Source of the DNA: Chromatiales bacterium
GTDB lineage: Bacteria; Pseudomonadota; Gammaproteobacteria; Chromatiales; Chromatiaceae
DNA length: 32,575 nucleotides
Direction of reading: 5' to 3'
NCBI GenBank assembly: GCA_024762475.1
Contig: JANTHJ010000024.1
Location: 1-32,575, forward strand
Under the pieces are notes generated by a model. That model was given only the letters and a program-made list of their open reading frames with translations. It did no database searches and had not been told where the DNA came from. The position numbers were made by a program, and so were the translations under genes. Below are positions 4,971 to 28,094 of this stretch, one piece after another (the first letter of the stretch is position 1; each line of letters begins with the position of its first letter).

Positions 4971-5151
4971 TAAACGCATAGTCAGGGATGCCACTGTCCA
5001 TAATCATAAAGATGCAGTACGGGCTTCGACTCATGTTCGAGGCGAATTTGCAAATGGGGAGTCGTGCCAATTCCTTTGCCACCCCCGGTCTGGGGCCGTT
5101 ACCGGTCCTTCGCTTGGTTTTCAATCTGACAAAGAGAAGATAGGGAAAGAA

Positions 5152-6372: not shown

Positions 6373-6492
6373 CAGGGTTCGACAGGGGTGGTGTGCGGAG
6401 CCTCGTCATGGCCACACGGTTCGGTTCCCGGACCGAGGCCCACCGCGGTCACGGCGAGCGCGGCCTGCACTGCACCGCCGATCCCTCGATGA

Positions 6493-8844: not shown

Positions 8845-8869
8845 AGCGACTACCGTTCCGAGAATCAAT

Positions 8870-9217: not shown

Positions 9218-9370
9218 ACAAAGCTGACGACTGCCCCTGCTCGTCTCCGACGTCGACTTGGCGCAGACCCCTGTACCCGAGACCCTGCGTGGACAAGCGC
9301 CATCGCTTGGTCGCATAATTGAAACGAAGGTGCTTGTCAACATGGCAACCGTCCAACAAGGAAAGTCATC

Positions 9371-14717: not shown

Positions 14718-14750
14718 AATCAGGTGTTGAACATCACGACAAAGCCAGGG

Positions 14751-14853
14751 TGTCGGAATGAACTCCGACCTACAGTTTCGGCATGATGCTGGTGCAGGTC
14801 GGGTTTCAACCCGACATCCGAGCCCGTCGTGTCGGAATGAACTCCGACCTGCA
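14751..14853. repeat. Cluster of three REP-like palindromes
   Basis: Two nearly identical copies of TGTCGGAATGAACTCCGACC (14751-14770 and 14830-14849) flank a related palindrome in the opposite orientation, AGGTCGGGTTTCAACCCGAC (14796-14815). Stems are 6-8 bp and perfect (GTCGGA/TCCGAC; GTCGGGTT/AACCCGAC). Such dispersed palindromes are common in genomes of gammaproteobacterial sulfur bacteria, as I recall. They sit between two divergent genes, 34 bases upstream of the DedA-PAP2-LssY start, so they are more likely genomic repeats than terminators. Confidence 0.7.
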
Positions 14854-14920
14854 CGCGAGTGGAGCCATGCCCACGCAAAAGAGCGTCATTGTACAGCGCG
14901 GGCTCCGCCTCATTCCGAAA

Positions 14921-14965
14921 CTTGCCAAACGGTAATGTAGGCAGGCCATCCCGGCGGTGGATAAT
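14921..14965 (+). promoter_or_regulatory. Shared OmpR-type box and -10 element before the MFS gene
   Basis: CTTGCCAAACGGTAATGT (14921-14938) is one of five similar 18-bp boxes in the window. A -10-like GATAAT lies at 14960-14965, 39 bases after the start of the box. The same distance separates the box and the TATCAT before the response-regulator gene. This -10 implies a transcript beginning near 14972, which favours ATG 14999 over GTG 14957 as the MFS start codon. Confidence 0.5.
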
Positions 14966-14998
14966 GCGACCCAGCCTCTCTTAATCTGTGTACCCGTC

Positions 14999-16159
14999 AT
15001 GCTTGGCCTGCCCAGAACCGTCATCGTCCTTGGACTGGTCTCGTTCCTGAACGATACCGCCAGCGAGATGATCACACCCCTGCTGCCGCTGTTCCTGACC
15101 GCCACCCTGGGAGCCGGCCCCGCCATCGTGGGCCTGGTCGAAGGGGTTGCCGAGGCGACCGCCAGCCTGCTCAAGCTGGTCTCGGGTCGGCTGGCCGACC
15201 GGGGATGGAACCACAAGGGGCTGGTGCTCGGCGGCTACAGCGTATCGAATCTTGCGCGGCCCCTCATCGGCCTGGCCCTGGGCTGGAGCTGGGTGCTGTT
15301 GCTGCGCTTTCTCGACCGGGTTGGCAAGGGCATTCGCACCTCGCCGCGGGACGCCCTGATCGCCGCCAGCACCGACGAGAGCCGGCGTGGGCGCTCCTTC
15401 GGCTTCCATCGCGCGCTGGACAATGCCGGCGCCATGGTCGGCCCGCTCATCGCCTTCGGTCTGCTCAGCGCACAGCTGCCGCTGCAGCACGTGTTTCTTT
15501 GGTCGCTGGTCCCCGGTCTGATGGTGCTGGCGCTGCTCATCTGGGGACTGGACGGCACCCCTGCCCCGGTCGCTCACCCGGATCGATCCCCGCTGCGCTG
15601 GTCGATGCTCGATGGCCGCGTGCGCGGACTGATCCTCGCAGCGGGCGGACTGGCCCTGGCCAGCGCACCCGAGGCCTTCCTGGTGCTGTGGGCCAGCGAC
15701 CGTGGCCTGGCCATTGCCTGGGTGCCATTGATCTGGGCCGGCGCCAGCGCGGTCAAGGCGGTGGTGGCAGGCCCCGCGGGGGCGCTGTCGGATCGCTTCG
15801 GGCGGGTGCCCGTGCTGCTCACTGGCTGGGGACTGCGCATCGCGCTGTTGCTGGCCCTCGCGTTCTCCGCCCATGGCCAGGGCGAGGCCCTGACCTGGGG
15901 GCTCTTCCTCGCCTATGGCGGCGCGCTGGCGGTCACCGAGGGGGCCGAGCGCGCCTTGATCGGCGACTTCAGCCGGGCCTCGCAAAGAGGGACCGCCTTC
16001 GGCCTCTACCACATGACCACCGGCCTGGCCGCGCTGCCCGGCGCGTTGCTGTTCGGCGTGCTCTGGCAGGGGCTGGGGGCCGAGATGGCTTTTGTTATTG
16101 CAGCCATGATTGCTGCGATCTCAGCCTTGGCACTGATCAGATCGACCAGATCCGCCTGA
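14999..16159 (+). CDS. MFS transporter
   Basis: The 386-residue protein has about 12 hydrophobic segments and major facilitator features. An N-terminal SFLNDTASEMITPLLPLFL is followed by the loop GRLADRGWNHKG and the segment DRVGKGIRTSPRDALI, which is characteristic of one MFS subgroup often labelled arabinose-efflux-like; substrates of that subgroup are uncertain. A second GALSDRFGRVPVL loop marks the C-terminal half. A GTG at 14957 would add 14 residues, but a -10-like element overlaps that region, so ATG 14999 is preferred; neither start has a good ribosome site. It is transcribed away from the DedA fusion and carries the shared regulatory box. It may export a toxic or lipid-like compound, but the sequence does not say which. 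Confidence 0.85.
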   Translation: MLGLPRTVIVLGLVSFLNDTASEMITPLLPLFLTATLGAGPAIVGLVEGVAEATASLLKLVSGRLADRGWNHKGLVLGGYSVSNLARPLIGLALGWSWVLLLRFLDRVGKGIRTSPRDALIAASTDESRRGRSFGFHRALDNAGAMVGPLIAFGLLSAQLPLQHVFLWSLVPGLMVLALLIWGLDGTPAPVAHPDRSPLRWSMLDGRVRGLILAAGGLALASAPEAFLVLWASDRGLAIAWVPLIWAGASAVKAVVAGPAGALSDRFGRVPVLLTGWGLRIALLLALAFSAHGQGEALTWGLFLAYGGALAVTEGAERALIGDFSRASQRGTAFGLYHMTTGLAALPGALLFGVLWQGLGAEMAFVIAAMIAAISALALIRSTRSA

Positions 16160-16350
16160 ATTCGAGGATTCGAAAAAAGCTTGTCTGGCTTGGACAGAGA
16201 AATGATCGGCGCAAGAAGAGGCGGCGCAGGCAGGCACGCCTTTGTCGAATCGACGCAACGCCGTACCGGAACATCTAGCGAGCTCTGGATGTGGCGTTGC
16301 TACCGCTTGAGTTACCACTCCAGGGTCCATGTTCAGCACACTCCACCAAC

Positions 16351-16405
16351 CTTTCCAATCGGTAATGTTCCCGTAAGTCAGCCGCAAGGTGCCCTCCCCG
16401 ATACT
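16351..16405 (+). promoter_or_regulatory. Promoter of the first pepSY gene with 11-bp phased half-sites
   Basis: This lies in the 294-base gene-free stretch before the gene at 16454; nothing else was recognised there. It starts with the shared box CTTTCCAATCGGTAATGT (16351-16368). Half-sites GTAATG (16362), GTAAGT (16373) and GCAAGG (16384) are exactly 11 bases apart, the spacing expected of a direct-repeat-binding OmpR-family regulator. A -10-like GATACT lies at 16400-16405. Half-site order, spacing and the 13-bp segment GCCGCAAGGTGCC are reproduced before the second pepSY gene. Confidence 0.6.
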
Positions 16406-16453
16406 TTCTCCATCGTCTGAATACAGACGCGATTCATACACAGGAGAAAGTCC

Positions 16454-16975
16454 ATGAAGAAGTTTCAAGCATCCGTTATCGCCCTGACCGTCGGCAGTGT
16501 TCTGGCCGGCAGCGGCCTCTATGCCTTCGCCGAAAACGCGAAAACCGCAGGCAATCAGCCCTTCGAGGGCATCGTGGTCGAGGATGTCGTGGTAGTCGAT
16601 CAACTGCCCACCGAGGTACAGAGCGGCTCGATCAAGGTCGGCGGGGCGAACGAGCAGGCGATGGCTGGCATGGCCAAGCTGGGCGCCTTCGACGCGCTGC
16701 AGATCGCCACCAGGGCCAACCCCGGCAAGGTGGTTGAGCTGCAACTGGACGAAGAGAACGGTTTCCTGATCTGGGAGGTGACCGAGATGACTGCCGATGG
16801 CCAGGAATTGCAACTCAAGCTGGACGCTGGCGACGGACGCCTGCTGGCCGCGGAGTCCGGTGATCACAACGGTGACGAGGCAGACGACGACCACGAGGAC
16901 CGGAACGAGGGCCACAGTAGTTGGAAGTTCTGGGAGGACCACGACGAGGACGAGAAAGGAGGGGACCGCGACTGA
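16454..16975 (+). CDS. Secreted PepSY-domain protein with acidic tail (copy 1)
   Basis: The 173-residue protein has a strong AGGAGA ribosome site and a signal peptide (about 1-26). A PepSY-like domain spans about 65-137, and the C-terminal tail (136-173) is rich in Asp, Glu and His with two Trp. PepSY domains often act as periplasmic inhibitors or sensors next to proteases or two-component systems. The acidic tail could bind divalent metal or cationic peptides. The paralogue at 24202 shares LPTE near the domain start, then GSI-x-V and NE-x-AMA, and LQLKLDAG/IQLKLDAG near the end. It is followed by a large hairpin and then an ABC-exporter operon, and its promoter carries the phased regulatory box. 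Confidence 0.85.
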   Translation: MKKFQASVIALTVGSVLAGSGLYAFAENAKTAGNQPFEGIVVEDVVVVDQLPTEVQSGSIKVGGANEQAMAGMAKLGAFDALQIATRANPGKVVELQLDEENGFLIWEVTEMTADGQELQLKLDAGDGRLLAAESGDHNGDEADDDHEDRNEGHSSWKFWEDHDEDEKGGDRD

Positions 16976-16994
16976 GCGGCTCCTGCCAAACGAG

Positions 16995-17035
16995 GGCCGG
17001 CGGCGCCGATCCCGCAAGGCGCCGCCAGTCCGGCC
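16995..17035 (+). other. Large GC-rich hairpin between pepSY copy 1 and the ABC genes
   Basis: GGCGGCGCC (16999-17007) and GGCGCCGCC (17018-17026) form a perfect 9-bp stem around a 10-base loop. An outer GGCC pair (16995-16998 with 17032-17035) can extend it past a small bulge. No T-run follows. In this 87-base gap it could protect the upstream message or reduce read-through into the ABC genes. A comparable hairpin follows the second pepSY gene. Confidence 0.6.
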
Positions 17036-17062
17036 TTCACGTTCCCAAAGGGAGGAACCAAG

Positions 17063-17989
17063 ATGTTGATCGACGCAAATCACCTCGCGCTGACCCTGGA
17101 TGGCAATACCATCCTCAAGGACGTCAGCCTGCACATGGACAAGGGCCAGATCTACGGCCTGCTCGGACCCAACGGGGCCGGCAAGAGCACCACCATCGCG
17201 CTCCTGCTGGGACTCTATCGGGCGGACAAGGGCCACCTGATGCGCTTTTCTGAAGCAGAGACCGATCTCGTATCGATCCGCCGCCGCATCGGGGTCATGC
17301 CGGAGTTCGCCGGTTTCTACGAATGGATGAGCGCACGGGAATATCTCATCTGGTATGCCGGGTTCTATGGCGGTTTGCAGACACCGCCCGATGCCCTCCT
17401 CGCAAGGGTCGGCCTCGCGCAGGCCGGCGCCAAACCCATCTCCCAGTTTTCGCGCGGCATGAAGCAGCGCCTGGCCCTGGCACGGGCACTGGTACATGGG
17501 CCGGAGCTACTGATCCTCGACGAGCCCACCAATGGCCTCGACCCTCGCGGCCGGCGCGAGATTCACGACCTGCTGATCGAGTTGGCGCAGCAAGAGAAGG
17601 TCGGGATTCTATTGTGCACCCACCTGTTGGACGATGTCGAACGACTGTGCACCCGTATCGGGATCATCGACAAGGGCCAGACGGTGCTCGAGGACGATCT
17701 CGATCGCCTCCTGCATGATGCCGGTAGGCCCCGCTACCGTCTTCACATGACGGACGTCCCCACCGTGCAATCGCTCCCACCATCCGTCAACCTGATCGAT
17801 TGGGATGGCAGTTGGTACACCGTCGAAATCGAACCTTCCCAAGACGCGGGTATCGCCCAGACGTGGGAGTCGCTGCTTTCTCTTGGCTGGTCCTTCGACG
17901 AGATCCACAGGGAGAAAGACACCCTTGAGGCACGCTACCTGACGCTGACCGGCGGCGAGAGGGCGACATCACAGGAGAAGGCCGCATGA
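17063..17989 (+). CDS. ABC transporter ATP-binding protein
   Basis: The 308-residue protein is the nucleotide-binding subunit of an ABC-2 type exporter. It shows Walker A GPNGAGKST (35-43), the signature FSRGMKQR (129-136; the usual LSGGQ is degenerate, as is common in ABC-2 ATPases), Walker B LLILDEPTNGLDP and a switch histidine in LLCTHLLDD. About 80 residues after the core form the usual C-terminal extension of this group. The ribosome site GGGAGG precedes ATG 17063. The stop overlaps the permease start by four bases, which indicates translational coupling. The substrate cannot be read from the sequence. Confidence 0.93.
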   Translation: MLIDANHLALTLDGNTILKDVSLHMDKGQIYGLLGPNGAGKSTTIALLLGLYRADKGHLMRFSEAETDLVSIRRRIGVMPEFAGFYEWMSAREYLIWYAGFYGGLQTPPDALLARVGLAQAGAKPISQFSRGMKQRLALARALVHGPELLILDEPTNGLDPRGRREIHDLLIELAQQEKVGILLCTHLLDDVERLCTRIGIIDKGQTVLEDDLDRLLHDAGRPRYRLHMTDVPTVQSLPPSVNLIDWDGSWYTVEIEPSQDAGIAQTWESLLSLGWSFDEIHREKDTLEARYLTLTGGERATSQEKAA

Positions 17990-18741
17990 ACGCTTCATCT
18001 CTCATCGCCACTAAGGAACGCAGCGCCCTGCTGCAAAACCAACGGGGGCTGGCCTGGCTACTCGCGTATGCGGGCATCCTGTCCGCCTTTGCCCTGTTGT
18101 TGATCAGCAATCGGGAACTGAGCCTGCTCGACAATGCCCAGGTGGTCTACATGATGGCGGGCACGGTCACCGCTGCCGGGGCACTGATCGCGGTGATCAT
18201 GGGGTCGGACGCCTACGCCGGTGAACGCGAGCGCGGCACCCTGGTGCCACTGCTCACTGCGCCCATCTCGACGGGTGATTTGCTGATGGGCAAGGCAATT
18301 GGCCTCGCCAGCGCCTGGGGCATCATGTACCTGCTGTCCCTTCCCTACCTATGGGCAGTGGGCGCTGGCGGCCAGAACCTGGGACAAGCCATCTTCTACC
18401 TGGGCCTGTTCGGAACGCCTGTGGTATTGGGCTTCGGCTATCTGGCCATGGCCCTGTCGGCGCGCAGCGGCAGTGTCATGTCCTCGCTGCTGACCAGCCT
18501 GATCATCCTGCTGTTTTCGGCCAGCCCGCTGCTGATCGGACCGGGCCTGCGTAACAGCGCCATCGGCAAGGCGTTGGATGCTGTCAATCCGTTCTCGGGT
18601 GCCCTCAACACCTACGACGCGGTCATCATCGACAGTGATCCCTTCCTGTCACAACTGGGCCGGCTGGTACTGGTATTGCTCTGGTTGGGGATCATGTTCG
18701 GTGTGGCACGGCTGAGCGCCCGGCGCCCTGCCTTCCGCTGA
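17986..18741 (+). CDS. ABC-2 type transporter permease
   Basis: The 251-residue protein has about six membrane segments and the ABC-2 permease motif DAYAGERERGTLVPLLTAPIS after the second segment, where the ATPase docks. It overlaps the ATPase gene by four bases and is followed by a secreted protein gene 25 bases later, so the three genes probably form one exporter operon. Permeases of this kind move lipids, polysaccharides, peptides or metal-linked cargo outward. No specific substrate can be assigned. Confidence 0.9.
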   Translation: MNASSLIATKERSALLQNQRGLAWLLAYAGILSAFALLLISNRELSLLDNAQVVYMMAGTVTAAGALIAVIMGSDAYAGERERGTLVPLLTAPISTGDLLMGKAIGLASAWGIMYLLSLPYLWAVGAGGQNLGQAIFYLGLFGTPVVLGFGYLAMALSARSGSVMSSLLTSLIILLFSASPLLIGPGLRNSAIGKALDAVNPFSGALNTYDAVIIDSDPFLSQLGRLVLVLLWLGIMFGVARLSARRPAFR

Positions 18742-18766
18742 TACGTCTGCTGACAGGAGAAAGACA

Positions 18767-19297
18767 ATGAAACACCTCAAATACCTTCTGGCCGGCTCCT
18801 TGCTGCTCTTAAGCACCCTGGCCTCGGCGGCCAGTTTGCAGCTGCAGCTGAAGTCCGACCCGGCCAATCCAGGTCATCCCACGATGGGCGACTGGATGCA
18901 CTTCAACAGCGTGATAACCAACAGCGGTCAGCAACCGATCGAGGGGCTGGTGGCCTGGATCAGCCTGGTCCAGGTCACCCCCGGCAAGGAACAGCCCATG
19001 GACCTCGAGGACTGGAGCGCCCACAAGGCGGTGACGGGGACCGCGCTTGCTCCCGGTGCCAGCCTGCAGACCCAATGGCCGATGCGCCTGATACAGAGCG
19101 GCGACTACCGGGTCGTGATCAGCACCACGGACCGGAACAACAAGACCGTCTTTACCAGTCCGACACTGCAATTCCATGTAGCACAGAAGCCTGTTGTCGA
19201 ATCCACCCGGATACTGCCCGTCGCGCTCGGCATCCCCCTATTGATAGGCGGATTGCTCGGGACGCAGAGGTTCCGGCATCGACACCGCTCGGCCTGA
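18767..19297 (+). CDS. Periplasmic protein with C-terminal membrane anchor, exporter accessory
   Basis: The 176-residue protein has a signal peptide (about 1-21, ending ASA), an extracytoplasmic domain of about 120 residues that looks like a beta-sandwich, and a C-terminal membrane segment (about 150-167) followed by a basic tail. The pattern W-M-H-F-N-S-V-I-T-N-S-G near 44-55 is typical of Ig-like domains found with ABC-2 exporters. A good AGGAGA ribosome site precedes it. Position directly after the permease suggests an accessory subunit. No family name was recognised. Confidence 0.8.
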   Translation: MKHLKYLLAGSLLLLSTLASAASLQLQLKSDPANPGHPTMGDWMHFNSVITNSGQQPIEGLVAWISLVQVTPGKEQPMDLEDWSAHKAVTGTALAPGASLQTQWPMRLIQSGDYRVVISTTDRNNKTVFTSPTLQFHVAQKPVVESTRILPVALGIPLLIGGLLGTQRFRHRHRSA

Positions 19298-19352
19298 ATC
19301 ACCCAGACGACTGTTTCTTTCCGGAATCACACACCCATAAGGAGTCGAAAAA

Positions 19353-20153
19353 ATGTCCGTAATCACCTCCGACAACATGAAACAGGCGCTGTTGCGCGTA
19401 CCCGAGGTCACACTCGTTTTCTGGATCATCAAGACGCTGTCCACCACTGTCGGTGAGACCGGTGCCGACTTCCTGGCCTTTGACCTGGGCTGGGGCATGC
19501 CGGTTACCACCGTGCTGATGGTCGGCATCATGGTCGTGCTGCTGTATTTGCAATTTGGCAAGCTCAAGCGCTACGTGCCGGCCAATTACTGGACCCTGGT
19601 GGTGCTGATGAGCGTAGTCGGCACCCTGATCACCGACATGCTGGTCGACCTTGCCGGGGTCAGTCTTGTCACCCTGAGCATTGTGTTCACGGTGATGATG
19701 CTTGCCGGTTTCTATCTCTGGTACCGGGAAGAAGGAACCCTGTCGATTCACTCTATCGATACAGGCAAACGTGAGGCGTGGTACTGGGTCGTCATCCTGC
19801 TGGCCTTTTCCCTCGGCACCGGTGTTGGTGACCTGATCTCCGAGCACTTCGCCCTCGGTTACGACAAGGCCCTGCTGCTGTTCAGTGGACTGATTGCTGC
19901 GGTTGCCGTCGCCTACTACGTCTTCAAGCTCAACGCGGTCACGGCATTCTGGATCGCCTATGTATTGACCCGGCCGCTGGGGGCATCGCTGGGCGATTTC
20001 ATGATCCAGACGCCAGCGGATGGCGGCCTTGGGATCAATATGATGGCCGTCAATATCGCTTTTCTTGGCGCCATTGTTTCGCTGGTCGGATATGAGCTGT
20101 TTCGGATCAAGCAGGCCCTCTTGGCGCAGATGGTGGAAACACCAACGGATTGA
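19353..20153 (+). CDS. DUF347/COG4705-type multi-repeat membrane protein
   Basis: The 266-residue protein is almost entirely membrane-embedded. A short motif recurs roughly every second helix: KTLSTTVGETGAD, SVVGTLITD, SLGTGVGDLISE and RPLGASLGD. This fourfold T/G-x-x-G-[D/E] pattern in polar helix starts is the hallmark of the DUF347 repeat found in COG4705 membrane proteins, whose function I do not know to be established. A strong AAGGAG precedes the start. It follows the ABC accessory gene by 55 bases and may belong to the same transcript. The conserved acidic and Gly residues in helices fit an ion transporter, which is inference only. Confidence 0.85.
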   Translation: MSVITSDNMKQALLRVPEVTLVFWIIKTLSTTVGETGADFLAFDLGWGMPVTTVLMVGIMVVLLYLQFGKLKRYVPANYWTLVVLMSVVGTLITDMLVDLAGVSLVTLSIVFTVMMLAGFYLWYREEGTLSIHSIDTGKREAWYWVVILLAFSLGTGVGDLISEHFALGYDKALLLFSGLIAAVAVAYYVFKLNAVTAFWIAYVLTRPLGASLGDFMIQTPADGGLGINMMAVNIAFLGAIVSLVGYELFRIKQALLAQMVETPTD

Positions 20154-20256
20154 GAAGGCTGCCCGAGTGACCGGCGCGGACCTGGGCCTCCATCGGCCCG
20201 GTCGATCCGGGACGCTCGATCATCATTGAACGGCAAACTCACTGAGCGCCAATCGA

Positions 20257-21354
20257 ATGCACATAGTGGATATCACAATGTTTTGGGCGCCAGCCTCCGG
20301 GGGTGTTCGCACTTACCTCGAAGCGAAAGCAGCGTGGCTACGGCAACAGCCCGACATCCAGCACACGCTGCTGGTACCCGGTGCATCGGCAAGGCACGAC
20401 GGTGACACTCGGACCCTGCCCGCCCCCTCTCTGCCCTTTGCCAACGGCTACCGCTTTCCTCTACGCAAACAGGCCTGGATCGATCAGTTGATCGAGATGC
20501 GGCCCGACATCATTGAGGCCAACGACCCCTATGTTCCCGCCTGGGCCGCCCTGGAGGCAGGCCGTCGACTGGGCGTACCGGTGATCGGCTTCTATCATTC
20601 CGATCTGCCGCGCCTGGTGGGTAGTCGCGCGGGGCACTGGACCAACCGCCTGATGAACCGCTACGTGCACAACCTCTACCGTCGGTTCGATCGCGTGCTG
20701 GCGCCTTCGCAGGTCATGGCCGACAATCTGCATGCATTGGATGTGCGCAAGGCCCATGTGCAGCCGCTGGGGGTGGATGCCCGCTGCTTCCATCCGGACA
20801 AACGGACAGGCCGGCTGCGTGCCCGGCTCGGGCTCGGTGACGACACCCGGTTGCTGGTATTTGGCGGGCGGGGCGCGCGGGAAAAGAACCTGCCCGTCCT
20901 GCTGGAGAGTATGCGTCTGTTGGGCGCGCGCTATCACCTGCACCTGGTCGGCTCGCACATGCCAAGGCAGCTGCCAACCAATGTAACAACCAGCGACCGT
21001 TTTGCCTCACAAGATGAACTGGCAGGAATGCTCGCCGACAGTGACGCACTGGTCCATGCGGGGGATCGTGAGACCTTTGGATTGATCGTTCTCGAGGCCA
21101 TGGCCAGTGGCCTGCCGGTAGTTGGGGTGGATGCCGGTGCCATTGCCGAATTGATCGTGCCGGGCACCGGTCTGCTCGCCGAACCGCTGTCGGCCACTTC
21201 CATGGCGGAGACAGTCCAGCATCTTTTTCGACGCGACTGGCAGGAAATGGGGCAACAGGCACGTCGACACGTGGAGAACACCTATTCCTGGGACAACGTG
21301 TTCCGGTTACTGTTGGCCCACTATCGCGAACTCGGCGGCGCTACCGAACTCTAA
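20257..21354 (+). CDS. Family 4 glycosyltransferase (GT-B fold)
   Basis: The 365-residue protein has the two-domain GT4 layout. The N-terminal acceptor domain contains the glycine loop APASGGVRTYLEA (near 8-20). The C-terminal donor domain contains GGRGAREKN (near 205-213) and the E-x7-E element ETFGLIVLE (271-279), followed by AMASGLPVVG. The sequence resembles GDP-mannose-dependent or similar alpha-mannosyltransferases acting on lipid acceptors, such as MgtA/PimB-type enzymes. It lacks a signal peptide and probably works at the cytoplasmic membrane. Its neighbours in envelope lipid metabolism suggest a glycolipid or lipid-linked glycan product, but donor and acceptor are not determined. Confidence 0.9.
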   Translation: MHIVDITMFWAPASGGVRTYLEAKAAWLRQQPDIQHTLLVPGASARHDGDTRTLPAPSLPFANGYRFPLRKQAWIDQLIEMRPDIIEANDPYVPAWAALEAGRRLGVPVIGFYHSDLPRLVGSRAGHWTNRLMNRYVHNLYRRFDRVLAPSQVMADNLHALDVRKAHVQPLGVDARCFHPDKRTGRLRARLGLGDDTRLLVFGGRGAREKNLPVLLESMRLLGARYHLHLVGSHMPRQLPTNVTTSDRFASQDELAGMLADSDALVHAGDRETFGLIVLEAMASGLPVVGVDAGAIAELIVPGTGLLAEPLSATSMAETVQHLFRRDWQEMGQQARRHVENTYSWDNVFRLLLAHYRELGGATEL

Positions 21355-21484
21355 TCGAGAACCTGCCAATGGGCGAGCAGCGCCGCACGGCACGGCTACC
21401 ACATGGCGCGCCACCGGTTTGGCGCCCGGCAGCTGGAGACATCCGTGTGCCCGCCAGCCCTGAGGATTGATGGAGGCGAAACCC

Positions 21485-21904
21485 GTGACAAAGATTCGGA
21501 GCATGAACCGGAGAAAGCGCTACTGGATATGGCTGGCCGCAGCCCTATTGCCCGGACTCATGATCTATGCCGCCCTCGTGGCACATGGGTCCGCGCCCGA
21601 CTTTTACGCTGAACCTCGTGCCGCACTGACGACGGCGCGCCAGCATCTACAGCTGGCTTACGGGGAGGGACAGGCGTTGCGCGAAGACCTCGCCATCGAA
21701 CATCGCGAGATCGAGATGACCCTCAAGGCCCTGCAACAGGCGAGACTGGCCGACGAGGGCCGCACTCGTGTTTCCGAACTCGCCACCCGCGTGCAAAGAC
21801 TGGAACAGCCGGACGAACTGGGGAAGATGACTCCGCAACAGTTGCGTCGAGAATATGAGAGTATCCTGGCCGATCTGCAACAACTGATCGACGAGAATCA
21901 TTAG
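21485..21904 (+). CDS. Single-pass membrane protein with periplasmic coiled coil, unknown function
   Basis: The protein is about 139 residues, with a basic N-terminus, one membrane segment (about 12-33) and a long alpha-helical region rich in Glu, Arg, Gln and Leu that probably forms a coiled coil. The start is uncertain. GTG 21485 has GGAGG eight bases upstream and is preferred. ATG 21470 would add five residues, with GAGG four bases before it. No family was recognised. It lies between a glycosyltransferase gene and a DUF202 gene and may be a structural or assembly factor of the envelope. Confidence 0.65.
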   Translation: MTKIRSMNRRKRYWIWLAAALLPGLMIYAALVAHGSAPDFYAEPRAALTTARQHLQLAYGEGQALREDLAIEHREIEMTLKALQQARLADEGRTRVSELATRVQRLEQPDELGKMTPQQLRREYESILADLQQLIDENH

Positions 21905-22164
21905 CCTGAAAATTGCACCACCCGAACGGTGATTCCTATGCAACACTGTGAAATGATCAATGAAGCTTTTAGCTGCTCGAAGCGTTCGCCCGCGACAGAT
22001 TGCAGGGGTCATCGTTCTATTCCGATTCGAGCGGATTCCCGCTCGCCATGGCTTGATCTTCCCCCAGACAATGGCCACGGCTATCCCTTGCGGCCCAGGC
22101 CGGCGCCCCACCGGCTGCGAATTCCGCCTGCTCTCGGGATGCTGACGCAACTTCCGGATCAGCC
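21905..22164. other. Intergenic region with a duplicated upstream sequence
   Basis: No convincing gene is visible in these 260 bases; the open frame at 21929-22177 is poor in composition and overlaps the next gene. The stretch at 21909-21941 begins AAAATTGCACCA and closely resembles the sequence at 31241-31276, directly upstream of the CorA-type gene, apart from a few one- or two-base gaps. This could be a shared leader or regulatory site. I cannot name it. Confidence 0.4.
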
Positions 22165-22533
22165 ATGTCCTACCTGAACGACCCACGGGTTCTTTTTGCC
22201 GCCGAACGCACCCTACTGGCCTGGAACCGCACCGCGATTGCGCTCATCACCCTGGGCTTTGTGATCGAGCGATTCGGTCTGTTCATCAAAATAATGCACA
22301 TCAACATGGTGCCGGGCCAGCGGGAGCTGTCCTTCTGGCTGGGTCTTTCCCTCATCGCCGGCTCCGTCGTGGTCAACAGTCTCTCGATCTGGCAGTTTCT
22401 CCGCGTACGCAAGAGTCTGTCGCCCGAAGAAATACCCGATCGTTACATGACCTGGCTGGCAGCCAGTCTCAACCTGCTGGTTGCACTGTTCGGCGGTGGC
22501 CTGATCTTCTACCTGGCACGGGGCTTTCTGTGA
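22165..22533 (+). CDS. DUF202 family small membrane protein
   Basis: The 122-residue protein shows the DUF202 (YidH-like) signature: FAAERTLLAWNRTAIALI near the N-terminus, followed by three membrane segments. The RTxLAWxRT core is the conserved part of the family, whose members are inner-membrane proteins of unknown or variable function. The ribosome site is weak, but the conserved N-terminus supports ATG 22165. It lies 91 bases before a cardiolipin synthase gene and could be co-expressed with it. Confidence 0.85.
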   Translation: MSYLNDPRVLFAAERTLLAWNRTAIALITLGFVIERFGLFIKIMHINMVPGQRELSFWLGLSLIAGSVVVNSLSIWQFLRVRKSLSPEEIPDRYMTWLAASLNLLVALFGGGLIFYLARGFL

Positions 22534-22613
22534 CAGCGAGGATATTCGGGAATCGACACATTCCCCTTGCAGCCATTGAGCGCACTCACTGGGTTCGCAG
22601 TGCATCTGATGTT

Positions 22614-22623
22614 GTGTCGACAC
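22614..22623. promoter_or_regulatory. Perfect 10-bp palindrome directly before the cardiolipin synthase start
   Basis: GTGTCGACAC is a perfect palindrome that ends one base before ATG 22625, where a ribosome site would be expected. It could be an operator, but it is short and may be chance. Confidence 0.25.
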
Positions 22624-22624
22624 G

Positions 22625-24064
22625 ATGGTTCCAGAAACAGCGGCCGGGCGTTTGTATATGTTCGAAGACTGGCATGAATTGATAAGATGGGTTCTTACCA
22701 CCCACGCCAGCCTGTGGCTTGGCGCCTTCATCGTGTTGCTGCTGTTATCGGGCATGCTCCGCGAGCGGCGCAACCCCAGCGCGTCGGCCGCCTGGTTGAT
22801 ATTCATGCTGGCCGCACCCTATGTCGGAGTCCCGCTCTATCTCGCACTGGGCACGCGCAAGCTGAAGTCTCTGGCACGCCAGAAACAGCGCCTGTTCGCT
22901 GGGCGAACCTCGCTCACACATCGAGACTCCGCTCTTCGGAATCTACTCGCCCATCTGGGTGTACCTGACCCCACCACTGCAACCGGATTCAATCTGCACA
23001 CAGATGCCCAATCGGCTTATGTCCGCCTTATGGCGCTTCTCGACGGAGCGAAGCAAAACATTGACATCGAGATCTTTATTCTGGCTGGCGACACCACGGG
23101 TCAGAGTCTGATAAATCAGTTGGCCCGGTGCGCGCAACGTGGCGTTCGCGTGCGCCTGTTACTCGACGGCGTGGGTTCTTTCCTGTTGTCCAGGAAACAC
23201 CTGCAGCCGTTGGTCCTGGCCGGTGGCGAGGCGGCCTGGTTCATCCCGGTACTGCACAGACCGCTGAGAGGTCGCACCAATCTTCGCAATCACCGAAAAC
23301 AGGTCCTGATCGATCAGGAAAAAGTCTGGAGCGGTGGTCGCAACCTCGCCGATGAATACCTTCAGGGCGAAAATGAGACGCACTGGTATGACCTGAGCTT
23401 CGACCTTGAAGGGCCGGCAGCGATCGATTATCAGACACTCTTCGAAGCGGACTGGGCCTTTGCCAACAAGATCCGTCCCGGTGTTGTAGAAAAACTCCTG
23501 GTGTCGCCCGATAGCAGCCCGCCGTCACACGAAGTGCAGATCCTGCCTGCCGGGCCGGACATGGACGAAGACGTCCTGGAGCAAACCCTGATCACGCTGA
23601 TTCGGGGCGCGGAACAGCGGATTCTGATTACCACGCCCTACTTCATTCCGACTGAAACGCTGCAAACCCTCCTATCGAATAGTGCCCGTAGCGGCATCCA
23701 GGTGGACCTGCTACTCCCGGAAAAGTCCAATCATCGCATTGCCGATTATGTGCGCAATCGGTTCTTACGTGAGCTACACAAGGCTGGAGTGAACATTTAC
23801 ACCCTGTCCGATGGGATGCTGCACGCCAAGGCATGGGCAATCGATGACCGGTACGCTGTCATTGGCTCCGCCAACGCCGATCTTCGCAGCTTGCGACTGA
23901 ATTTCGAACTGATGACCCTGCTGTACGGGCAACAGGATGTTATCGCCGTGCGCGATTGGGTGGATGGCCACCTCTCCCACGCTCACCTCTGGAGACCACC
24001 TCCCCGCAACCCGCTGCGAGAAACTATTGAAGGATTGCTCATGCTGCTCTCTTTCCAACTCTGA
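22625..24064 (+). CDS. cls: Cardiolipin synthase, phospholipase D superfamily
   Basis: The 479-residue protein has an N-terminal membrane anchor of two helices (about 25-45 and 55-75) and two HKD motifs. The first is HRKQVLID with its following SGGRN (from about 222), the second HAKAWAID followed by IGSAN (from about 399). This arrangement is that of bacterial ClsA-type enzymes, which join two phosphatidylglycerol molecules to give cardiolipin and glycerol at the inner membrane. Two possible starts exist, ATG 22625 and ATG 22658; neither has a clear ribosome site and the shorter form begins closer to the membrane anchor. Whether it corresponds to ClsA, ClsB or ClsC of E. coli was not settled, but the anchor favours ClsA. 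Confidence 0.9.
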   Translation: MVPETAAGRLYMFEDWHELIRWVLTTHASLWLGAFIVLLLLSGMLRERRNPSASAAWLIFMLAAPYVGVPLYLALGTRKLKSLARQKQRLFAGRTSLTHRDSALRNLLAHLGVPDPTTATGFNLHTDAQSAYVRLMALLDGAKQNIDIEIFILAGDTTGQSLINQLARCAQRGVRVRLLLDGVGSFLLSRKHLQPLVLAGGEAAWFIPVLHRPLRGRTNLRNHRKQVLIDQEKVWSGGRNLADEYLQGENETHWYDLSFDLEGPAAIDYQTLFEADWAFANKIRPGVVEKLLVSPDSSPPSHEVQILPAGPDMDEDVLEQTLITLIRGAEQRILITTPYFIPTETLQTLLSNSARSGIQVDLLLPEKSNHRIADYVRNRFLRELHKAGVNIYTLSDGMLHAKAWAIDDRYAVIGSANADLRSLRLNFELMTLLYGQQDVIAVRDWVDGHLSHAHLWRPPPRNPLRETIEGLLMLLSFQL

Positions 24065-24088
24065 CCCTTCGAACCCAAGGCAAGAAAC

Positions 24089-24143
24089 CTTGCTGATCTG
24101 CAATGTTGCGGCAAAGCGGCCGCAAGGTGCCACCCCGTATTCT
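24089..24143 (+). promoter_or_regulatory. Promoter of the second pepSY gene with 11-bp phased half-sites
   Basis: A diverged box CTTGCTGATCTGCAATGT (24089-24106) starts the element. Half-sites GCAATG (24100), GCAAAG (24111) and GCAAGG (24122) are exactly 11 bases apart. GCCGCAAGGTGCC occupies 24119-24131, and a -10-like TATTCT lies at 24138-24143. Every offset equals that of the promoter at 16351, so gene and promoter were probably duplicated together. Confidence 0.55.
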
Positions 24144-24201
24144 GTCTCCAACGTCGAAAGAAGACGTTTACGTTAAGACAAACCTCAACAGGAGATAGAC
24201 G

Positions 24202-24684
24202 ATGAAAACGTATCGAAAAGGTGTATTGGCTCTGACTCTGGCCTCGCTGCTTGCCGGCGGTGCTGCCCTCGCCACCTCGGCCGGCGGCGCCGGCAATCCG
24301 GCGAAGGGGCCGGCGGCAATGCAGAACCTGCCCACAGAAGCTCGAAACGGCTCCATCCAAGTGAAGGGCGAGAACGAGCGCGCTATGGCGGCCCAGGCCC
24401 GGGTCAGCGCTGCAGAGGCGGCGCGCATCGCGGCCAGCGCGCATCCGGGAAAGATCGTCGAAACCCAACTCGGCAACGAGAACGGGACGCTCATCTGGGA
24501 AGTGACCCAGTTGGATGCCCAAGGCCGGGAGATCCAGCTGAAGCTGGATGCGGGTAACGGCAAGCTGCTGGCTGCCGAGTTCGGTGACCATGAAAACGGG
24601 AACTATGAGGACCGCGAGGACTCAGATGCCGACGAGGGGCGCCATGGCGCACATGAAGACGAAGGCCAGGAACGTGACGGATAA
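24202..24684 (+). CDS. Secreted PepSY-domain protein with acidic tail (copy 2)
   Basis: The 160-residue protein is a paralogue of the one at 16454. It has AGGAGA before its start, a signal peptide (about 1-25), the shared LPTE and NE-x-AMA motifs, a PepSY-like domain (about 55-128) and a Glu/Asp/His-rich tail (128-160). It lacks the insertion of about ten residues found before LPTE in copy 1. Regulation appears to be shared through the phased promoter. A long hairpin follows at 24704, then a small membrane protein gene. Likely roles are periplasmic sensing or binding of metal or cationic stressors, inferred from the acidic tail and neighbours. Confidence 0.85.
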   Translation: MKTYRKGVLALTLASLLAGGAALATSAGGAGNPAKGPAAMQNLPTEARNGSIQVKGENERAMAAQARVSAAEAARIAASAHPGKIVETQLGNENGTLIWEVTQLDAQGREIQLKLDAGNGKLLAAEFGDHENGNYEDREDSDADEGRHGAHEDEGQERDG

Positions 24685-24703
24685 CTGACCCCCTACCCAC
24701 ACA

Positions 24704-24738
24704 GATGGCGTGCAGGCCGGATCGGCCTGTACACCATC
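24704..24738 (+). other. Long hairpin after pepSY copy 2
   Basis: A 16-position stem is formed by GATGGCGTGCAGGCCG and CGGCCTGTACACCATC around a three-base loop, with one mismatch and one G-T wobble. No T-run follows. It lies in the 89-base gap before the small membrane protein gene and corresponds in position to the hairpin at 16995, although the sequences are unrelated. Confidence 0.6.
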
Positions 24739-24773
24739 CCTGCAAAACACTGTAAGCAAGAGGTGGAACAATC

Positions 24774-24986
24774 ATGTACCAGCAAACCCCGAAAATCGGC
24801 ATCGCAGACAAACTCGTTATTGGATTGATGACCGTCGTGCTCTTTGTCGCCGGCTTCTTCGCCAGTCTCCTGGCGCTGGCAATCGGCGGAGCCATGGCCC
24901 TGTTTGTCCTGGGCAAGGCCTGGTGGTCGAATCGGCGTGCACAAGCGCAATGTATCGAGGGCGAATATCAGGTGCTGCACGAATAG
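24774..24986 (+). CDS. Small membrane protein, unknown function
   Basis: The 70-residue protein has two hydrophobic stretches (about 13-34 and 35-48) and a basic then acidic tail ending near IEGEYQVLHE. That type of tail (IEGEY/F) occurs in other small proteobacterial inner-membrane proteins that I cannot name. A purine-rich AAGAGG ribosome site precedes it. It lies 89 bases after pepSY copy 2, so it is probably read through the hairpin from the same promoter. Possible partner of the PepSY protein, by position only. Confidence 0.7.
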   Translation: MYQQTPKIGIADKLVIGLMTVVLFVAGFFASLLALAIGGAMALFVLGKAWWSNRRAQAQCIEGEYQVLHE

Positions 24987-25001
24987 CCGAATGGCCCTAA
25001 C

Positions 25002-25019
25002 CTTGCCAAACCGTAATGT
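25002..25019 (+). promoter_or_regulatory. Shared OmpR-type box before the DUF4389 gene
   Basis: CTTGCCAAACCGTAATGT differs by one base from the box before the MFS gene. It starts 90 bases upstream of the start codon at 25092, which suggests that the DUF4389-phosphoesterase-lipase group has its own promoter rather than depending on pepSY copy 2. No confident -10 was found at the expected distance. Confidence 0.5.
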
Positions 25020-25091
25020 TTGATATCTTGTTAGACGTGTCCTGCGGCCCCACCATGGGTCAACGACATCAATGAATGGAGACCTGTCTCA

Positions 25092-25412
25092 ATGGATAAA
25101 TCCGAACAACCGGCCCAGACCCCGCTCAGCTGGGAACGCATTCTCAACATGCTGGTTCTGTCCGTGGCCTATGCCGTCGCAGAGACCGTGCTGATCGTGC
25201 TGATCGTCGGCCAGATCCTGTTCCGCCTGGTCAGCAAACAGCCAAACGAGCCGATGCGCCGTCTGGGCAAACAGTTATCCGACTACCTCTACCAGATCCT
25301 GCTGTATCTGTCGTTCAACAGCGAAGAACGGCCCTTCCCATTCCAGACCTGGGCGGCGAGTCGGGAACGCAGCATCATCGTTCCCGACACAGACCCTCAG
25401 GGCAACCGATAA
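25092..25412 (+). CDS. DUF4389 family membrane protein
   Basis: The 106-residue protein has one long hydrophobic stretch (about 18-46) and the family's C-terminal signature, YQILLYLSFNSEERPFPF (71-88). DUF4389 proteins are inner-membrane proteins of unknown function. The upstream GGAGA is about 10 bases from ATG 25092. A metallophosphoesterase gene begins 36 bases after the stop, so co-transcription is likely, driven from the box at 25002. Confidence 0.88.
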   Translation: MDKSEQPAQTPLSWERILNMLVLSVAYAVAETVLIVLIVGQILFRLVSKQPNEPMRRLGKQLSDYLYQILLYLSFNSEERPFPFQTWAASRERSIIVPDTDPQGNR

Positions 25413-25447
25413 CAGCCACATAGTCCATCCGCCACCCGGGGTGCGGG

Positions 25448-26509
25448 ATGTTGCGCCTGAAGCAGCTCGTCGAGGCCTATTTCAGACGGCGCACCGCCTT
25501 GCGGGTCGCGCTGCTGGCCTTGATTGCCACCATCTGGGGTTACTCGGAATATAGTGACTGGTACGTCATTCCCGAGAGTAACCTGAACTACAAGGCAATA
25601 CGCGAAATTCGGGAAAACTACCGTGAAGGACCCCTGACCTTTGCAGTCGTGGGAGACAACAAGAACAGCCCGATATTCGATACGGTCATCCAGCGGATCA
25701 ACCAGGACAAGGACATTCAGTTCGTGGTGTTGCTCGGCGATCTGGTGCAATACCCAACGGTCGAGACCTACCGGGCCTTTTTGGCCCAACGGGACGATCT
25801 GCATCCGCCTTCGGTGGCCGTTCCGGGCAATCACGACGTGGCATTCAAGAACCATTACTTCTATCACACCATTTTCGGCCGTTTCTACTACAGCTTTGCG
25901 GTGGGTGACTCGCTGTTCATCATGCTGGACGACAGCAATGAGCAGCGGATCGACGATGAGCAGTTCGCATGGCTCCGCGACCAGCTTCAGCGAGGGCAGA
26001 ATTACAAAAACCGCTTTGTTTTCATGCATGTCCCGCTGTGGGACCCGCGCGGTGTCGATGAGCGTGGGGTGCGCTTTGCACACGCCCTCGGTGACAGTGA
26101 TGCGGCCCGGGAACTGGAAACGCTGTTTCGAAAGAATGCAGTGACCTTGCTGTTCGAAGGCCATATCCATGCCTACTACAACCTCAAGGACAGCCAACCG
26201 CCCCGGATCATCACCGGTGGCGGCGGAGCGGCCCTGAGCGGAACCGATCCCCAACATGCGTTCCACCACTACCTCAAGGTGACGGTAGACAAAGAAGGCG
26301 CTGCCACCTCGGTGGTCAAGCTCGACCAGACCGGTCACGTGCGCTCGTGGCAGCAATACCTGACGAACGCCAAACTCTACATCTCGACCTTTGTTCATCT
26401 CTATACACTGCAACTCATCCTCGGTCTGCTCGTGTTATTGCTCCTGGCAGATATCGGGTCCGAGTTCCTGCGCCAGAGAAAAGAGCATGACCAGCAGAAC
26501 GCGCGATGA
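25448..26509 (+). CDS. Membrane-anchored calcineurin-like metallophosphoesterase
   Basis: The 353-residue protein has an N-terminal membrane helix (about 18-36), a periplasmic metallophosphoesterase domain and a second helix near 318-338. Metal-binding motifs are GDN (69-71, where the usual GDxH histidine is absent), LGD, GNHD (127-130), a later H in FMHVP and GHIH (238-241). The fold hydrolyses phosphate esters with two metals; placement outside the membrane suggests a lipid-linked or envelope phosphate substrate. It overlaps the lipase gene by 23 bases, which argues for coupled translation. Specific substrate unknown. Confidence 0.85.
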   Translation: MLRLKQLVEAYFRRRTALRVALLALIATIWGYSEYSDWYVIPESNLNYKAIREIRENYREGPLTFAVVGDNKNSPIFDTVIQRINQDKDIQFVVLLGDLVQYPTVETYRAFLAQRDDLHPPSVAVPGNHDVAFKNHYFYHTIFGRFYYSFAVGDSLFIMLDDSNEQRIDDEQFAWLRDQLQRGQNYKNRFVFMHVPLWDPRGVDERGVRFAHALGDSDAARELETLFRKNAVTLLFEGHIHAYYNLKDSQPPRIITGGGGAALSGTDPQHAFHHYLKVTVDKEGAATSVVKLDQTGHVRSWQQYLTNAKLYISTFVHLYTLQLILGLLVLLLLADIGSEFLRQRKEHDQQNAR

Positions 26510-27347
26510 TGGCTGGTGCGAGCGGGATGCACTGTTTTATCCGGAACGTTACCCGGCGTTTCGAGATGCCGGGACGGTGCACCCCTTCGAGCCCGAGGCG
26601 CCGCTTTCGTCCGTAAACGCCTGGTGGCTCGCCAATGCGTCACATCTTGCCTATTACGACGAAGACGACCTTGTCCGGGCGTTGTCGCTACAAGGCTTTG
26701 CGTTGAGTCACTTTGCCAGCCAAAGGGGGAGCCAGGCCTACCTTGCGGAAAGTGACCACATCGCAATACTGGCGTTCCGGGGTACGCGCCACTCAGAGTT
26801 CTCCAACCTCCGCAATGACATCGACATCCGGCGCCTTCCGGTTGTCCGCAATGTATTCGTGCATCATGGGTTCCTTCGCTCGCTGATGGCGATATGGGCC
26901 GGCCTGGAGACCGCACTGGCACAGGTCGAGAAACCCGTCTGGTATACCGGCCATAGTCTTGGCGGCGCCATGGCGCTGCTCGCCTCCCTGCTCAGGCCGC
27001 CGACGGCCACGCATGTCTTTGGCGCCCCCCGGGTAGGCAACGAATCCTTTGCCGGCCTGATCGGCGGGCTGCCAGTCGCCGACTATGTCAATTGCTGCGA
27101 TATCGTGCCACGCCTTCCCCCCGCAGCACTTGGTTTCTCCGACGCAGGCAGCAAACGATACCTCACCGCGGACCACCGACTGCTGAGCAGTCCAGGCCCC
27201 TGGGAAAGGCGCCTGGACTGGCTCAGGGGTCAGATCATGTTTGCCCGTCGCACCGACTGGCTTCGGCCGGAATGTGTCGGCCTGCGCGCGCTTTCAGACC
27301 ATATCGTCCTCAACTACTCGGCGGCGATCCGGCAGGTCATCAACTGA
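26487..27347 (+). CDS. Class 3 lipase family protein
   Basis: The 286-residue alpha/beta hydrolase has the nucleophile elbow GHSLGG (Ser157), an aspartate in DIVPRLPP (Asp205) and a C-terminal histidine in DHIVLNY (His272), a complete class 3 lipase triad. FRGTR upstream would supply the oxyanion region. The open frame extends back to 26391, but ATG 26487 is chosen because it lies at the end of the phosphoesterase gene with AAAAGAG before it. No signal peptide is visible, so it may act in the cytoplasm or at the inner leaflet, perhaps as a phospholipase or acylglycerol lipase. It is the last gene before the two-component system. Confidence 0.88.
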   Translation: MTSRTRDDGWCERDALFYPERYPAFRDAGTVHPFEPEAPLSSVNAWWLANASHLAYYDEDDLVRALSLQGFALSHFASQRGSQAYLAESDHIAILAFRGTRHSEFSNLRNDIDIRRLPVVRNVFVHHGFLRSLMAIWAGLETALAQVEKPVWYTGHSLGGAMALLASLLRPPTATHVFGAPRVGNESFAGLIGGLPVADYVNCCDIVPRLPPAALGFSDAGSKRYLTADHRLLSSPGPWERRLDWLRGQIMFARRTDWLRPECVGLRALSDHIVLNYSAAIRQVIN

Positions 27348-27365
27348 CACCACTGCGTACCGAAC

Positions 27366-27410
27366 CTTTCCAGATCGTAACTTTGAAACGCCTGGTCCGC
27401 CGCTTATCAT
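27366..27410 (+). promoter_or_regulatory. Shared OmpR-type box and -10 before the response-regulator gene
   Basis: CTTTCCAGATCGTAACTT (27366-27383) is the most diverged copy after the one at 24089. A -10-like TATCAT lies at 27405-27410, 39 bases after the box start, as before the MFS gene. The -10 is only a few bases before ATG 27417, so transcripts from it would be nearly leaderless. This supports autoregulation of the two-component operon. Confidence 0.5.
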
Positions 27411-27416
27411 GATCCA

Positions 27417-28094
27417 ATGCACCTGTTACTCATCGAAGACGACCAGGAAGCGGCTGCCTGGCTCAGCAAGGGCCTCCAGTCCATGGGGCATGTGGTCGAT
27501 CATGCGCCCGACGGCGAGGACGGCTTGCACCTCGCGCTGACCGGCGACTATGACGTGCTCATCGTCGATCGCATGCTGCCCAAGCGCGACGGATTGTCGA
27601 TCATCCGCATGTTGCGCGCGGATGGGGACCTGACCCCGGCGCTGGTCCTGAGCGCCCTGGGCGAGGTGGACGACCGCGTACAAGGGCTGCGCGCCGGCGG
27701 GGACGACTACCTGGTCAAACCTTATGCCTTCGAGGAGCTGCTTGCCCGGCTGGAAGTGCTGACGCGCAGGCACAAGGAGCAGGCACCTGCCACGCAGTTG
27801 AAGGCCGCAGATCTCGTGCTCGACCTCACCACGCACAAAGTCACCCGCGCTGGAAAAACGATTCGGCTGCAGCCCAAGGAGCTGCAGTTGCTCGAGTACC
27901 TGATGCGTCACCAGGACCAGATCGTCACCCGCAATATGCTTTTGGAGCACGTCTGGGACCTGCATTTCGATCCCCAGACCAATGTGGTCGATACCCAGAT
28001 CTCCCGCCTGCGCGGAAAGATCGACAAGGATTTCGATAAGCCGCTGTTGCATACCATACGCGGGCGCGGCTACCGCCTGAGCGAAAATGAATAG
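27417..28094 (+). CDS. OmpR-family response regulator
   Basis: The 225-residue protein has a receiver domain with the acidic pair D8-D9, phosphoacceptor D51 in IVDRMLPKRDG and K101 in YLVKPY. A winged-helix DNA-binding domain of the OmpR/PhoB type follows (about 127-223, with LQPKELQLLEYLMRH and the RGRGYRL ending). It overlaps the kinase gene by eight bases. A copy of the 18-bp box lies in its own promoter and four more lie before envelope genes in the window, so it is the obvious candidate to bind them. The exact subfamily (QseB, PmrA, CpxR or other) was not settled. Confidence 0.95.
   Translation: MHLLLIEDDQEAAAWLSKGLQSMGHVVDHAPDGEDGLHLALTGDYDVLIVDRMLPKRDGLSIIRMLRADGDLTPALVLSALGEVDDRVQGLRAGGDDYLVKPYAFEELLARLEVLTRRHKEQAPATQLKAADLVLDLTTHKVTRAGKTIRLQPKELQLLEYLMRHQDQIVTRNMLLEHVWDLHFDPQTNVVDTQISRLRGKIDKDFDKPLLHTIRGRGYRLSENE

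Follow-up and report, generated by a model that had tools for sequence, protein, structure and literature searches.

Five 22-bp palindromes mark a predicted local regulon of a CusR-like two-component system in a Chromatiaceae bacterium

Five imperfect palindromes of 22 base pairs (bp) reside within 12.5 kb of contig JANTHJ010000024.1 of a Chromatiaceae bacterium (the window, 32,575 nucleotides; source genome, 3.01 Mb). Each is located in front of a transcription unit, and the last precedes the genes of an OmpR-family response regulator and a sensor histidine kinase. The sites are conserved in related genomes and co-occur with this two-component system. The initial annotation had taken them as 18-bp boxes marking the regulon of the adjacent regulator, its own promoter included, and conservation, co-occurrence and operator class all argue for that prediction. 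A real, local and conserved regulon, a known operator class in a new arrangement, is well supported by the sequence comparisons. Kinase and regulator likely form an autoregulated local circuit, in which the regulator would activate the five promoters through the 22-bp dyads; because sites and regulator travel together between species, the circuit is very probably small and self-contained.

14918-14939, plus strand: operator 1, 22-bp dyad, between the DedA-PAP2-LssY gene (minus strand) and the MFS gene (plus strand)
16348-16369, plus strand: operator 2, 22-bp dyad, pepSY1 operon
24086-24107, plus strand: operator 3, 22-bp dyad with the best symmetry (9/11), pepSY2 operon
24999-25020, plus strand: operator 4, 22-bp dyad, DUF4389 operon
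27363-27384, plus strand: operator 5, 22-bp dyad with the lowest score, regulator's own operon, ending 32 bases before the ATG
27417-28094, plus strand: OmpR-family response regulator, by model scores closest to the CusR/CopR/CzcR models, below their curated cut-offs
28087-29493, plus strand: sensor histidine kinase (HAMP-HisKA-HATPase), closest to a heavy-metal kinase model, below its cut-off
29503-30099, plus strand: PAP2 phosphatase, undecaprenyl-diphosphatase-like (below cut-off), 43% identical to MmfB of Tn6048

Structure and distribution of the operators

The boxes lie where the initial annotation had placed them (14921-14938, 16351-16368, 24089-24106, 25002-25019 and 27366-27383), and a hand count bears out the 13 of 18 bases shared by the copies at 24089 and 25002. 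The sites are real, the 18-bp format being better replaced by a 22-bp imperfect palindrome, AACMTTKCC-N4-GGYAAKGTT. Paired positions, out of 11, are 5 in the MFS, 8 in the pepSY1, 9 in the pepSY2, and 6 in both the DUF4389 and the regulator promoters. At least 8 pairs are found at 0.2%, and at least 9 at 0.02%, of window positions; among 200,000 draws, each of five positions in the window, none attained the sum of 34 pairs, the centre having been picked after viewing the boxes. Moving the centre by 1-3 bases leaves 0-5 pairs, moving it by 4-6 bases gives up to 6 and 7 in single boxes. The copy at 24089, described at first as diverged, is the most symmetric of the five.

The core of the box, CTTKC-N6-GTAAT, is an inverted repeat with a GTAAT half-site and a 6-base spacer, and at the sequence level shares the layout of the operators of CusR (ATTCATnnATGTAAT, as printed), CopR (CTGACAn5GTAAT) and CzcR (GAAACn6GTAAT) given in PMC11195947. 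Regulator class and operator class agree, which supports a regulon of the local system. Description of the box as a purely direct repeat was rejected for the core, which is symmetric, and kept for the arrays found at the pepSY promoters.

All five boxes are intergenic and stand in front of genes, the regulator gene included, as had been proposed, in a region (792-32346, gene list drawn up in the analysis) that is 87% coding and 13% intergenic. The box pattern, with up to 3 mismatches, has 3 matches in the window against 0.01 expected. A looser pattern, with up to 2 mismatches, detects in the whole genome the four strong copies and one other place, the reversed control pattern having 2 and 3 matches (five in total). 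A symmetric sequence model, trained solely on the five window boxes and their reverse complements, finds four places in its own genome at E<=10 (150 of 736 first-look candidates scored), all inside the window. The genome-wide matrix scan suggested in the initial annotation yielded no site of comparable strength elsewhere, and a scatter of boxes over coding sequences of the genome was seen neither in the pattern scans nor in the model scan.

Conservation and co-occurrence with the two-component system

Comparisons covered 146 genomes of one family and one named bin. Boxes in the window and in genome G129 are identical at 104/110 positions over the five promoters (MFS 22, pepSY1 21, pepSY2 21, DUF4389 20, regulator 20 of 22). 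Identity in the remaining intergenic DNA is, in the same order, 0.16 (42/259), 0.28, 0.81, 0.61 and 0.49, length differences being scored as mismatches and the G129 regulator stretch starting at an arbitrary cut; the pepSY2 flanks are conserved along with the box. In bin10046, operators 2, 3 and 4 match those of the window at 19/22, 20/22 and 20/22 positions. A third syntenic locus, in a Thiotrichales bin (L093), keeps the box at 3/3 promoters visible on the contig.

When 14 other genomes were scanned at E<=5, the window-trained model recovered matching promoters in four. Hits correspond to four places in G129, all in the syntenic locus, and to pepSY1 in G051. In G088 one site precedes a pepSY-DUF347 operon, and a second (C86:16511) is near a contig end; in G133 sites precede a pepSY-DUF347-ABC operon and an MFS gene, and the kinase gene of that genome lies on neither of the contigs concerned. 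The pepSY1 gene (E<=1e-10) is found in 5/146 family genomes (G000, G129, G051, G088 and G133). All five carry a kinase at least 49% identical, and all five are within the nine genomes having a box at E<=1, a coincidence with a chance probability of 2.4e-7 if relatedness is ignored.

Among the remaining boxed genomes, no window homologue was found in the 3 kb surrounding the places in G062 and G017, and the place in G059 lies inside an actin-like reading frame. The latter is a full-length actin-family frame (L107 1114-2202; Pfam Actin, 446 bits) on a contig from a bacterial genome of the family, and may encode a bacterial actin-related protein, or reflect transfer or contamination. The G065 site (L105 1501-1522) is a near-perfect palindrome (9/11 pairs), about 190 bases before the gene of another CusR-like regulator, 54% identical to that of the window; this suggests a shared half-site code.

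Six genus-mates have neither the kinase (E<=1e-100) nor the regulator (E<=1e-60). No site at E<=5 was detected in 4/6, and the other two have one place each (E 2.3 and 3.4), around which (5 and 10 kb) none of the window's proteins was found at E<=0.01. MFS orthologues in G050 (72%) and G012 (65%), genomes in which the kinase was not found, have no box in their 1.5-kb flanks. MFS relatives at 47-48% in G103 and G021 have weak nearby matrix scores (7.2-8.2), which were not counted as boxes.

In regulator promoters the distance from the best site to the ATG is 32 bases in the window, G129, G060 and G131, 33 in G097 and 31 in G051 (6/9 genomes), and five of these six promoters beat shuffles of their own sequence at P<0.05. 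Sites in G133 and G030 are at 53 and 73 bases, both with P<0.01.

Nine kinase-regulator pairs of greater distance have best regulator-promoter scores of at most 8.4, at 42-144 bases; shuffle P is below 0.05 in three (L046, L051 and L053), with low scores (0.8-8.4) and other distances. Relatives from outside the family gave a mixed picture when used to test the operator. Rhizobium lusitanum (L098) carries three dyad-like sites (17.6, 12.7 and 10.9) before DUF347, glycosyltransferase and regulator genes, in a locus that, when resampled 40 times, gave a mean best score of 9.6 and a maximum of 17.9. Nothing above the resampled range was found in Agrobacterium, Sinorhizobium, Shinella, Indioceanicola and UR115. 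None of 500 shuffles of its promoter matched the Methylophaga dyad (17.2), whereas whole-locus resamples reached a maximum of 19.5.

Target genes, promoter architectures and competing explanations

Genes facing operators 1 to 4 are the following.

12564-14717, minus strand: DedA-PAP2-LssY_C protein, divergent from operator 1
14999-16159, plus strand: MFS transporter
16454-16975, plus strand: PepSY protein 1, with Asp/His-rich tail
17063-18741, plus strand: ABC exporter ATPase and ABC-2 permease
18767-19297, plus strand: small conserved protein without Pfam match, adjoining the ABC permease gene in the window, G129, G051, G133 and bin10046
19353-20153, plus strand: DUF347 membrane protein, 48% identical to MmfC1
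24202-24684, plus strand: PepSY protein 2
25092-27347, plus strand: DUF4389 protein, metallophosphoesterase and class 3 lipase

The targets named initially (the MFS gene, both pepSY groups, the DUF4389 group and the regulator operon) all carry boxes; the list was incomplete, since operator 1 also faces the DedA-PAP2-LssY gene. In G051, where the MFS gene is missing from the locus and a search of the genome at E<=1e-80 did not find it at another position, the DedA-PAP2-LssY gene and a box (17.0 with the window-trained matrix) are kept. Operator 1 may serve the MFS and DedA-PAP2-LssY genes alike. In G030 the MFS gene lies directly downstream of the kinase gene, on the same strand. For the intervening cardiolipin synthase, glycosyltransferase and DUF202 genes the matrix scan showed no separate box.

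A long Asp/His-rich tail that includes a WKFW motif is common to PepSY1 orthologues (window 16454-16975; L070 2340-2822; L072 5207-5716), and may bind metal or membrane. Ahead of operator 1 (14750-14850), repeated TGTCGGAATGAACTCCGACCT units look like an inserted repeat akin to REPs (repetitive extragenic palindromes), the intergenic stretch being shorter in G129. Farther upstream (792-11791), a 1392-residue low-complexity reading frame and an ExeA/GspA-like ATPase gene, recognized by reading only, are apparently unrelated to the boxes.

Promoter elements next to the dyads, the -10 hexamers being predictions from sequence, are as follows.

14960-14965, plus strand: putative -10 GATAAT of the MFS promoter, 22 bases past the box end
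16373-16388, plus strand: two extra half-sites, GTAAG-N6-GCAAG, at +11 and +22 from the GTAAT of the dyad (pepSY1)
16400-16405, plus strand: putative -10 GATACT, pepSY1
24111-24126, plus strand: two extra half-sites, GCAAA-N6-GCAAG, at +11 and +22 (pepSY2)
24138-24143, plus strand: putative -10 TATTCT, pepSY2
27405-27410, plus strand: putative -10 TATCAT, regulator operon

Two architectures can be distinguished. In pepSY promoters GNAA is repeated past the dyad, at +11 in 10/10 and at +22 in 9/10, a count which includes one diverged G051 pepSY2 site located by eye; nine non-pepSY promoters have no half-site at +11 or +22. In the arrays the six-base spacers vary, the half-sites stay. The putative -10 is 32 bases after the box in the two pepSY promoters of the window, and 21-22 bases after it in the MFS and regulator promoters of both window and G129, so that the pepSY array stops about 11 bases before the -10. 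Pho boxes stand in a similar position relative to the promoter. The operator class is already known; what appears as new here is the addition of half-sites in 11-bp steps at pepSY promoters.

In the circuit proposed, the kinase (28087) and the regulator (27417) would control their own expression, a phosphorylated regulator dimer binding the 22-bp inverted repeat, with CTTKC-N6-GYAAT as its core, and activating all five promoters in response to a signal that we infer to be metal ions or membrane damage. Counted from the putative -10, the dyad centre of the MFS and regulator promoters would be near -43, a usual spot for an activator touching RNA polymerase. At the pepSY promoters the dyad would be one helical turn further upstream, and the two half-sites, in 11-bp steps, would bridge the interval, stopping 11 bases short of the -10; regulator molecules could align along these arrays and substitute for the missing -35. 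The output would be an envelope response made up of PepSY proteins, ABC exporter, DUF347 protein, MFS transporter, PAP2 phosphatases and lipid-active enzymes, and PepSY proteins would probably exert feedback on the kinase, in the way described for DbfQ and DbfS. A further, tentative and rather doubtful step is that a CusR-like regulator may have exchanged metal efflux for an envelope module as its target, reading one half-site in two architectures, the lone palindrome for effectors and for itself, the 11-bp direct-repeat extension for PepSY. PepSY, a presumed periplasmic brake on the kinase, would thus have a threshold of its own, and negative feedback a separate gain.

Several observations weigh against the proposed circuit. 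Genome counts are non-independent, coming from one family and one named bin. The kinase is present in G060, G131, G030 and G097, and no site was found there at E<=5. The model passes only 4/5 sites in the window and 4/5 in G129, and the regulator's own box (27366), which has the lowest score, was not recovered by the genome-wide model scan. The regulator promoter is no better than shuffles in G051 (P 0.16), and no site was found in that of G088; sites in alphaproteobacterial and Methylophaga loci are no better than those in resampled whole loci. The -10 elements were assigned partly by eye, that of DUF4389 being poor. Finally, pepSY1 and pepSY2 promoters are paralogous, and shared half-sites are partly due to common descent; through this duplication the ten pepSY promoters amount to a smaller number of independent events.

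Envelope stress and lipid remodelling, the theme put forward initially, has partial support only, a metal-linked envelope role being an equally good reading. It is a serious contender, if at somewhat less than even chances, that the boxes are the regulon of this system and that the biology is a response to Zn-, Pb- or Cu-type ions at the envelope, not general envelope stress. Top matches of the regulator are a copper/silver regulator model and a heavy-metal subfamily; TIGR01387, one of its two best models, scores 242.7 bits (below the cut-off of 279.2), and the best model of the kinase, TIGR01386, 183 bits (below the cut-off of 292.55). PepSY, PAP2 and DUF347 are the core of the mmf cluster, reported as Zn- and Pb-induced, the homologies being 43% for PAP2 (MmfB), 48% for DUF347 (MmfC1) and weak for PepSY2 and MmfA (E 0.001). 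A role as lead/metal transporter has been suggested for DUF347 (PMC4531530), and PepSY1 has its long Asp/His-rich tail. The boxed genes, in contrast, include no metal efflux RND, P-type ATPase or copper oxidase. His49-His50 of the kinase, tried as a metal site, was rejected as not conserved, being found in 2/8 readable relatives, window included (8 of 12 rows were read, G088, G030, G087 and G023 being dropped), and an ExxE motif was not seen in the sensor, whose sequence was read by hand. Plasmid relatives, among the matches listed, also point away from metals: the Sinorhizobium system sits behind a trypsin-PDZ, DegP-like protease, and the Methylophaga one is transcribed divergently from genes for lipid A phosphoethanolamine transferase, PAP2 and diacylglycerol kinase. 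An Agrobacterium relative, also among the matches listed, has PepSY, ABC, DUF347-like and DedA-PAP2 genes together with copper proteins.

Further features of the sensor and of plasmid loci were recorded. At least two acidic residues directly precede [YF]WP in the kinase sensor (window 28180-28593) of 8/8 readable relatives, window included, and are a candidate cation-sensing patch; the predicted structure of this sensor is of low confidence (mean pLDDT 58.1). The Sinorhizobium region (L102 1-2100) also has feuN-feuP-feuQ, an annotated modulator beside a two-component system, an arrangement conceptually similar to that of PepSY-kinase pairs. In an Enterobacter plasmid (L100 5995-6762) the gene of a DUF347-like membrane protein, 52% identical to that of the window, adjoins mcr-10.1, another tie of DUF347 to lipid A phosphoethanolamine genes.

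That the regulator represses some promoters, chiefly DUF4389, where the dyad is nearest to the putative start, is unlikely. Dyad positions vary by one and two turns among promoters (partly by eye), and Pseudomonas CopR activates one promoter and hinders another from one common site (PMC11195947). MFS, pepSY1 and pepSY2 promoters, however, have no clear -35 and their sites are upstream of the -10, which suggests activation, and the DUF4389 -10 is uncertain. Binding of the boxes by a different transcription factor is more improbable still. Regulators of this class cross-bind, CopR, CusR and CzcR sharing one palindrome in Pseudomonas (PMC11195947), and the strong G065 site precedes a different CusR-like regulator; yet the five other regulators found in the same genome at E<=1e-25 are 34-41% identical to the local one (next best, 40%), sites and system are jointly missing in 4/6 genus-mates, with weak places only in the other two, and the MFS orthologues of G050 and G012 lack the box. 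A mobile or duplicated repeat devoid of regulatory meaning is hardly credible as the source of the boxes. The pepSY1 and pepSY2 promoters do resemble each other outside the box as well, but the MFS, DUF4389 and regulator promoters have little in common except the box, whose orientation and place are kept across genomes while flanks diverge.

Comparison with known systems

Taken as the regulon of the adjacent regulator, the five operators provide an uncharacterised two-component system with a concrete predicted operator and target list, and tie PepSY proteins to an operator architecture of their own, testable promoter by promoter. No description of this operator or gene set was found among the open-licence papers listed, as judged by titles and abstract openings.

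CusR, CopR and CzcR recognize an inverted repeat of the same kind, a GTAAT half-site about six bases from its partner, and PMC11195947 describes a very small, local, autoregulated regulon. Here, unlike in those systems, five operators share a single locus, the predicted targets comprise PepSY, lipid and DUF genes, not copper or zinc resistance, and both regulator and kinase are below the curated cut-offs.

In DbfQRS of Vibrio cholerae and in BqsRS of Pseudomonas aeruginosa (with PA2658/PA2659), PepSY genes stand beside a two-component system. Direct repeats, TTAAG-N6-TTAAG, are bound by BqsR. A DbfQRS-like module would have a PepSY gene no more than four genes away from kinase or regulator; in the window pepSY2 is five genes off the regulator, and in G051 the distance is two genes. 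The window differs from both systems in having a CusR-like regulator, operators dedicated to the pepSY genes and a wider boxed set. DbfQRS responds to membrane integrity, DbfQ interacting with or acting on DbfS (PMC12714742).

ColRS of Pseudomonas putida is metal-responsive and controls lipopolysaccharide and phospholipid genes (PMC4074579). Metal and envelope readings may both fit the window and, by analogy with ColRS, can coincide. ColS senses via ExxE, whereas the kinase of the window has no such motif; colRS expression is reported as unaffected by metals, whereas the operon of the window carries its own operator.

The mmf cluster of Tn6048 is reported to be induced by Zn and Pb, its function being described as unknown (PMC12029693, PMC2864759). 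As in the window, PepSY, PAP2/undecaprenyl-diphosphatase and DUF347 genes go along with a two-component system (Cupriavidus, pAKD16). Its gene list, unlike the window set, has no ABC exporter, lipase or DUF4389 gene. MmfR is best placed in the PmrA/QseB class, MmfR and MmfS are 30% and 26% identical to the local pair, and no dyad was found upstream of mmfA; identity of the two regulatory systems was rejected because of the other regulator class and the lack of a dyad before mmfA. The PepSY-PAP2-DUF347 set is thus found under different regulator classes, which suggests that the set itself is a functional unit.

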